From a virus, in IMG/VR virus record IMGVR_UViG_3300043392_000043, positions 1 through 33,147 of that record: a stretch of 33,147 bases of DNA. One strand, given 5' to 3'. Under the pieces are notes generated by a model, which searched no databases, had not been told where the DNA came from, and was given only the letters and a program-made list of their open reading frames with translations. Of this stretch, positions 5,477 through 21,674 are shown piece after piece; the first letter of the stretch is position 1; the number at the start of each line of letters is the position of its first letter. Position numbers and translations under genes: made by a program.

Positions 5477-5500
5477 AAAGCCCCTTTAATTAGGGGCTTT
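5477..5500 (+). terminator. Intrinsic terminator after the capsid gene
   Basis: Perfect 9-bp stem (AAAGCCCCT at 5477-5485 with AGGGGCTTT at 5492-5500), a 6-nt loop TTAATT, then TTTT overlapping the 3' arm. It lies 8 nt after the capsid stop and before the next gene, so it should cut transcription between capsid and tail tube genes. The A-run on its 5' side could let it act weakly in the reverse direction. Confidence 0.85.
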
Positions 5501-21421: not shown

Positions 21422-21560
21422 AAAAAAATATATAAAACCAAAAACATTAGAGGAATTAGATATTGAAAGAAAAAGATTATTAGTATATCAAAATGATAAT
21501 AAAAGACTAAAAAAAATTTCTGAATATTTAGACTTTATTTATTGGGGTATTAAAAAATAA
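21414..21560 (+). CDS. 48-residue basic small protein
   Basis: ATG 21414 overlaps the end of the TS-like gene by 8 nt; stop at 21558-21560. The product is Lys-rich with a helical middle (TLEELDIERKRLLVYQ) and an aromatic end (YLDFIYWGIKK). No family known. The overlap suggests co-translation with the TS-like protein. Its 3' end carries the -33 region of the next promoter. Confidence 0.6.
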   Translation: MSKKKYIKPKTLEELDIERKRLLVYQNDNKRLKKISEYLDFIYWGIKK

Positions 21561-21572
21561 TTTATATATTTG
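21542..21572 (+). promoter_or_regulatory. Promoter (TTG, 20-nt spacer, TATATTTG) for leader RNA and primase
   Basis: TATATTTG at 21565-21572 is a perfect Bacteroidota -7 element, and TTG at 21542-21544 is a -33 element with a 20-nt spacer. Transcription should begin near 21577-21580, right at the foot of the first hairpin of the structured leader. Confidence 0.75.
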
Positions 21573-21579
21573 TAAAAAT

Positions 21580-21660
21580 TATTGGAGTGGTAGCCAATAT
21601 TTAAAAAATTAAAAGCCTCTGACATAGTACCACCTACCACTGGACTATCTCGGGGGCTTT
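21580..21660 (+). ncRNA. Kissing-loop structured leader RNA before the primase gene
   Basis: Two hairpins. H1: ATTGG (21581-21585) with CCAAT (21594-21598) and an 8-nt loop AGTGGTAG (21586-21593). H2: a long stem, AAAGCCTCTGA (21612-21622) with TCGGGGGCTTT (21650-21660, two G-U pairs), extended by ATAGT/ACTAT and CC/GG with a one-nt bulge, and a 10-nt loop (21632-21641). The loop of H2 contains CTACCACT (21634-21641), a perfect complement of the whole H1 loop. This is a kissing-loop or pseudoknot fold. It begins at the predicted transcription start and ends 14 nt before the primase ATG. There is no T-run after H2, so it is not a simple terminator. Cis-acting control of primase, a small RNA, or an origin element are all possible. 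Confidence 0.75.
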
Positions 21661-21674
21661 ACTTATAAAAAAAT

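Follow-up and report, generated by a model that had tools for sequence, protein, structure and literature searches.

The lambda 6S RNA/tR' unit is a Q-dependent terminator regulated by the Q protein, and the c4 RNA of P1 and P7 is grouped with the CI RNA of P4 as a comparable leader RNA. Through premature termination, the P4 CI RNA shuts off the replication genes of P4 itself (PMC4825925), while the put RNA of HK022 is a two-hairpin leader of about 70 nucleotides (nt) that lies just past an early phage promoter and acts on transcription (PMC9378689). T4 homing endonuclease genes are controlled by RNA hairpins (PMC2988022), and in ColE1 RNA I/RNA II altered loop letters give orthogonal groups (PMC9458437). 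Here we describe a kissing-loop leader RNA found before a primase gene in a viral DNA of 33,147 nt (IMG/VR record IMGVR_UViG_3300043392_000043, positions 1 to 33,147; the window). The same design recurs in related Flavobacterium-type phages with dozens of codes swapped as cassettes, suggesting that early phage genes are controlled by a family of RNAs not recorded so far. The family is structured and covarying and follows a clear grammar, in which promoter, code and linker are followed by a terminator with the anti-code and then by the start codon. It recurs ahead of early genes in many uncultured Bacteroidota phages as well as cultured Flavobacterium phages, a group of viruses whose gene control is little known.

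With somewhat better than even confidence, we read the element as a promoter-proximal attenuator that also yields a small RNA of about 90 nt, with the code as a swappable specificity determinant. Once the promoter fires, the transcript would open with a short code, A, held in the loop of a small hairpin or in a free 5' end, followed by an AT-rich linker of about 20 nt and then by an intrinsic-terminator hairpin (hairpin 2) that shows the exact complement, A', in its loop shortly before the start codon of the early gene. Covariation indicates that A and A' base-pair, forming a kissing or pseudoknot helix that is compatible with the terminator stem. We infer that most transcripts probably end at hairpin 2, giving the small RNA, and that the downstream gene (here the primase) would be made by read-through, so that the module would act as an attenuator. 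Pairing of A with A' in the nascent RNA probably sets the level of read-through; it could precede completion of the terminator stem, thereby setting read-through, or it could fold the small RNA.

A module family in related phages

Loci were fetched for relatives of the primase and for relatives of the type-1 pattern, type 1 being the sub-family that holds the window element, and were scanned with a finder for a code and a linker followed by a hairpin that carries the anti-code in the loop and ends in a T-rich tail. The finder returned 222 matches compared to 8 in shuffled sequence, and 135 unique modules compared to 7 in shuffles when a promoter was required in front. When the real terminator-like hairpins were retained and their loops were set against permuted upstream regions, 29 modules were found where 1.4 were obtained after permutation (score of at least 11). 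Furthermore, the box TAnnTTTG lies no more than 40 nt upstream in 37 of 45 strong elements, a set chosen blind to the promoter, against a background of 5%. The initial annotation, which had picked out the two hairpins from the letters of the window, judged a chance origin unlikely, and the modules scoring at least 16 (103 versus 1 in shuffles, over 3443 promoter-like sites of the related loci) bear this out.

In total, the family comprises 172 distinct modules with 66 loop codes. Primase leaders often share the architecture while having wholly different sequences, as illustrated by the code pairs CTCTCTGA/TCAGAGAG, CCTCTGAC/GTCAGAGG and ACTTCGACA/TGTCGAAGT, with ATGGAAG/CTTCCAT, ATGCAAG/CTTGCAT and CATCTAC/GTAGATG as further pairs. 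The last promoter G mostly stands 3 to 15 nt before A (mostly 3 to 5 or 9 to 15 nt), and hairpin 2 mostly ends 10 to 20 nt before the ATG. These short spacings leave no space for a further promoter.

The proposal of a kissing-loop leader RNA is supported and survives the refuting condition set in the initial annotation: compensatory changes are seen across related leaders in the stems of both hairpins as well as in the loop-loop helix. We searched viral contigs with the flanks of A' only (GATAAAGA-N7-CTTTTGA), leaving the code free, and scored the loci with a slightly relaxed pattern. Most copies of this frame precede homing-type nuclease genes of the NUMOD4/HNH and GIY-YIG kinds, and every promoter-bearing copy (60/60) has an exact upstream complement of the free 7 nt, whereas the 73 other pattern matches lack both promoter and complement. 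In the 45 distinct sequences of frame A1, the named structure is 98.6% paired, and the kissing helix, whose partners lie in two hairpin loops, has 7 pairs that are 100% paired, with both-sided changes at 3 of them. Hairpin 1 stem and terminator stem covary too, and the covariation score was reached by none of 500 shuffles. Within type 1, covariation extends to the stems only (G-U pairs included), with a code that is invariant over 35 sequences. Two further cases show codes changing together with their partners: a pair of phages with 99% identical primases differs by ATGGAAG to ATGCAAG, and among the muminviruses one isolate has code GTGGAACG where a second has GTGAGACG, the change affecting the letters of each of the two partners.

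The whole phages examined have between one and four modules each, in the replication/early region. Most distinct modules precede primase operons, and others precede HNH or GIY-YIG nucleases, a gene of about 147 amino acids (aa) termed 'KDLF', or small genes. A module stands directly upstream of the gene in 64 of 170 distinct primase leaders and within 900 nt in a further 22. Among cultured phages, the nuclease frame occurs in 34 records from lytic Flavobacterium phages with LMO6/LMO9 as hosts, mumin, hattifnatt and hemulen among them; mumin6-1 has two modules and hattifnatt9-1 has three. One locus of these isolates bears either GTGGAACG (mumin, mymlan and snusmum) or GTGAGACG (hattifnatt, for example), with matching anti-codes.

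Free-standing NUMOD4/HNH and GIY-YIG nuclease genes carry their own promoter and kissing-loop leader (scanner positions 5478 and 7348 in L214, 5408 in L211, 2797 and 4661 in L195, and 11673 in L446), whereas many T4 nucleases borrow upstream promoters. A recurring leader whose code is always (A)CCGCCAA(G) is found upstream of several small early genes that are unrelated to one another (L100 at 9022, L115 at 10472, L239 at 4570 and L134 at 7684).

No named RNA of this form was known to the initial annotation, and an Rfam 15 scan gave no covariance-model match at gathering score in the window and 15 related loci. At E ≤ 1, the window matched sau-19 (25.4 bits against a cut-off of 80) and one microRNA and nothing else, with scores well short of the cut-offs. 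Searches of an open-access library gave no kissing-loop or pseudoknot leader of such form in Bacteroidota phages. The exact type-1 pattern in the window's spelling, which is too strict, was unmatched in viral contigs; the window leader, compared with cultured phages by blastn, gave nothing beyond chance matches, and neither did the type-1 consensus when compared with phages and plasmids. The only match among genome contigs, from Actinoplanes (L122), is one long perfect hairpin with no Bacteroidota promoter and was set aside as chance.

The element in the window

A scan for promoter, code and hairpin finds this element (Table 1) as the sole module of the window, with a score of 16.4. The leader folds at −28.9 kcal/mol (z = −3.3), a value equaled in 2 of 200 shuffles. 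The promoter box reported by the initial annotation is exact and its upstream TTG lies 20 nt away; the primase ATG (21675) follows 14 nt past the end of hairpin 2, as reported. Hairpin 1 is spelled TATTGG[AGTGGTAG]CCAATA. The reported 8-nt complementarity of AGTGGTAG and CTACCACT is exact, but only the 7 core pairs (GTGGTAG/CTACCAC) lie wholly in loops; the eighth partner nucleotide, T21641, belongs to the closing pair of hairpin 2, whose apical loop is the 8-nt CCTACCAC (21633-21640). The stem of hairpin 2, given as about 18 base pairs (bp) with one bulge and two G-U pairs, has 19 bp, a bulged A (21629) and a C.C mismatch (21623/21649), with G-U pairs present. The terminator-like character of this hairpin, the many-code family and the exchange of cassettes between close relatives had been overlooked. 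Other alleles mostly separate A from the hairpin 2 foot by 18 to 22 nt. The primase product matches a phage primase/helicase family less strongly than an unnamed family.

Table 1. Positions of the leader features and the downstream gene in the window
Feature	Position	Strand	Basis or remark
Candidate -33 element, TTG	21542..21544	+	Sequence; 20 nt before the -7 box; weak on its own
Bacteroidota -7 box (TAnnTTTG), exact TATATTTG	21565..21572	+	Sequence inspection; TAnnTTTG upstream in most strong elements
Hairpin 1, 6-bp stem TATTGG/CCAATA	21580..21599	+	Fold; stem covariation among relatives
Loop code A, AGTGGTAG (7-nt core GTGGTAG at 21587-21593)	21586..21593	+	Exactly complements 21634-21641
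AT-rich linker	21600..21611	+	Sequence
Hairpin 2, terminator-like	21612..21660	+	Fold; stem covariation including G-U
Code A', CTACCACT, within hairpin 2 loop	21634..21641	+	Sequence and fold
T-rich tail, TTTACTTAT	21658..21666	+	Weak in the window; strong in most relatives
BT4734-like_N (formerly VirE_N) primase, 782 aa	21675..24023	+	Domain and family matches

Directly upstream of the leader lies a thymidylate synthase-like gene (PF00303, 20783-21421); relatives have different genes there. In hairpin 2 of L004, L071, L200, L214 and others, UGAU/UGAU or UGAAAC/GUGGAU joins the lower and upper stem, which would make tandem sheared G.A pairs and is conserved while the code varies.

Probable attenuation and specificity, and alternative readings

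Modules detected without any T requirement (n = 115; 2 in shuffles) have at least five T among the 8 nt after the stem in 92% of cases, compared to 13% at the matching place before other genes. By this signature, a putative intrinsic terminator stands between promoter and gene, and the sequence of promoter, terminator and gene, with no space for another promoter, has the anatomy of an attenuator. A' is unpaired in the loop more often than other stretches are (83% versus 58%), indicating that A:A' pairing is compatible with the terminator stem. Each element has a code partner and is closely preceded by a promoter of its own, which makes it unlikely to be a mere terminator of the upstream gene. 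Likewise, alleles before the same gene share architecture and not sequence, and the lack of a conserved ligand-binding core led us to reject a metabolite riboswitch.

The same terminator signature bears on two readings in which the RNA acts after transcription. One large subclass has A beginning 3 to 5 nt past the last promoter G, that is, at the probable first RNA nucleotides, and pairing and stem coexist; the 5' end might thus be tucked into the loop of a stable hairpin and guarded against 5'-end-dependent decay, as a cap and not a switch. This would leave both the T-rich tails and the exchange of codes among close relatives (below) unexplained, and we think it unlikely. Alternatively, hairpin 2 could set access to the start region, in the manner of the hairpins that govern T4-type homing endonuclease genes (PMC2988022). 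The usual distance of the hairpin foot from the ATG and the many modules before HNH or GIY-YIG nuclease genes would suit such translational control, one of the functions first suggested for the window element, but the start codon lies outside hairpin 2 and the tail is T-rich and terminator-like, which makes it improbable.

Two other suggestions of the initial annotation did not find support. A DNA-level element, either the suggested cruciform replication origin or else a protein-binding inverted repeat, would fit the inverted repeats and their location in the replication region. The stems, however, contain G-U pairs on the sense strand (121 of 1276 pairs), the promoter and terminator signals, T-rich tails included, lie on one strand, and the elements stand before nuclease and other genes besides primase, up to four per genome, so that we regard this as very improbable. 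An opposite-strand antisense copy-control RNA of the ColE1/R1 type is given almost no credence, despite the resemblance of the complementary 7-nt loops to ColE1-type kissing complexes: the antisense promoter motif is not enriched downstream (15/128 versus a 16% background) and both partners are on one strand.

Several observations weigh against promoter-proximal attenuation as we propose it. The majority of distinct primase leaders (106 of 170) are without a directly upstream module, indicating that the module is not essential to the primase gene, and six other cultured Bacteroidota phages have no module scoring at least 14. No alternative, mutually exclusive fold was found. In the window itself, the T-tail is weak, and the kissing pairs of type 1 never vary; with its code invariant, loop pairing in type 1 rests on complementarity and analogy and not on covariation.

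The distribution of codes among close relatives adds a second aspect to the attenuator reading. Primases that are 98% identical can have unrelated leaders (L063 versus L074, L064 versus L066), and one type-1 leader is common to primases that are 39% identical. In the exchange pairs, flanking DNA is 72 to 98% identical, the last 100 nt ahead of the ATG are about 40% identical, and identity is 94 to 98% again from the ATG on; judged by these alignments, the leader alone has been exchanged, with sharp bounds at about -100 and 0. Since whole cassettes with self-consistent codes are exchanged between near-identical phages, specificity between genomes would seem to matter, which a purely local fold would not need. 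The code is therefore probably a specificity determinant as well, by analogy with self-specific antisense control, and a 100-nt noncoding cassette traded among near-identical virulent phages can be taken as a sign of selection on RNA specificity.

This could extend to control in trans, in which the terminated small RNA would bind same-code leaders of sibling or incoming phages and silence their early gene, with dose control or superinfection exclusion as the outcome, much as the P4 CI RNA halts P4's own replication genes by premature termination (PMC4825925). The sharply bounded exchange of whole cassettes, the 66 codes and the occurrence of two codes at a single locus in phages that share the same pair of hosts are in line with such an action. 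No code is common to two modules of one phage or locus (0/78 pairs), but with 1.4 expected this is not significant, and we do not claim selection for differing codes inside one phage. Furthermore, A' would usually be already taken by A of the same molecule, and the phages seem virulent: a tyrosine integrase was found in 1 of 28 phages, and the muminvirus isolates are described as lytic only (PMC7077304). Lysogenic immunity is thus unlikely, and with 27 of 28 phages without a tyrosine integrase any trans effect would be limited to co-infection or dose control. We consider trans control possible, though less probable than not. A new class of RNA regulator is put forward only tentatively, with several orthogonal swappable codes per virulent phage, each serving as an RNA tag by which copies of the phage itself, and of same-code rivals, would be sensed and silenced in trans, and with RNA incompatibility between lytic phages as the result. 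The cultured lytic muminviruses carry the module with natural codes that differ on the same host strains, making the question directly testable, and the codes would offer a natural source of orthogonal attenuators.

Other arrangements were observed before primase genes. In the 150 nt before the primase of L009-L018 and L021, a distinct leader has a hairpin AAAAGG..CCTTTT whose loop (ACACTGTT, or TTACTTGTT in L009/L010) complements a segment just before the ATG (partners AACAGTGT and AACAAGTAA); it looks like a mirrored version of the design, with compensated changes. In L222 (around 2834), a 15-nt perfect complement (AAAATGTGTTGCGGA) links a hairpin, placed about 106 nt ahead of the primase ATG, to an upstream stretch. 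L036-L049 have no kissing leader in the 150 nt before the primase and instead show repeated TTACACATT/AATGTGTAA inverted repeats before a promoter, perhaps an operator. Just before the primase leader of L108 (2651-3325) lies a conserved gene of about 225 aa with no Pfam match, whose relatives among cultured phages are only in mycobacteriophages (about 28-33% identity).

Comparison with known leader RNAs

Lambda 6S/tR' resembles the module in that its promoter runs straight into an intrinsic terminator gating phage genes, but it lacks loop-loop pairing. HK022 put is also a two-hairpin leader right after a promoter; its sequence, however, is conserved and it acts via RNA polymerase on downstream terminators, whereas the modules vary widely in sequence and have a second hairpin that is terminator-like in its own right. 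The T4 endonuclease hairpins share a promoter and a hairpin adjoining the start codon of phage nuclease genes, but they mask the ribosome site and have no loop-loop code. With ColE1, the module shares short complementary hairpin loops that kiss in a 7-nt, fully complementary loop-loop helix; the ColE1 RNAs come from opposite strands, while both loops are here in one transcript.

The likeness to the P4 CI/seqA-seqC leader extends to complementary segments on the same strand (as found here) and, on the attenuator reading, to a small RNA from the leader of a replication (primase-helicase) transcript, premature termination and specificity carried by short complementary segments. P4 CI differs in being processed and in pairing with sites up- and downstream of itself, whereas here the terminator loop itself is one partner and hairpin 1, or else the 5' end, is the other, and the design recurs before several genes with many codes in mostly integrase-less phages; the c4 family model (RF01695) had no match in the window or related loci. 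The kissing-loop leader falls outside the definitions of P4 CI/c4, ColE1, put and the T4 hairpins: it matches no Rfam family, shows neither an opposite-strand RNA nor a conserved core, and its hairpins leave the start codon uncovered. By analogy, the P4 CI RNA is the nearest known logic, and we regard the module as a variant of leader attenuators and self-complementary phage RNAs that has a real chance of being a new class.
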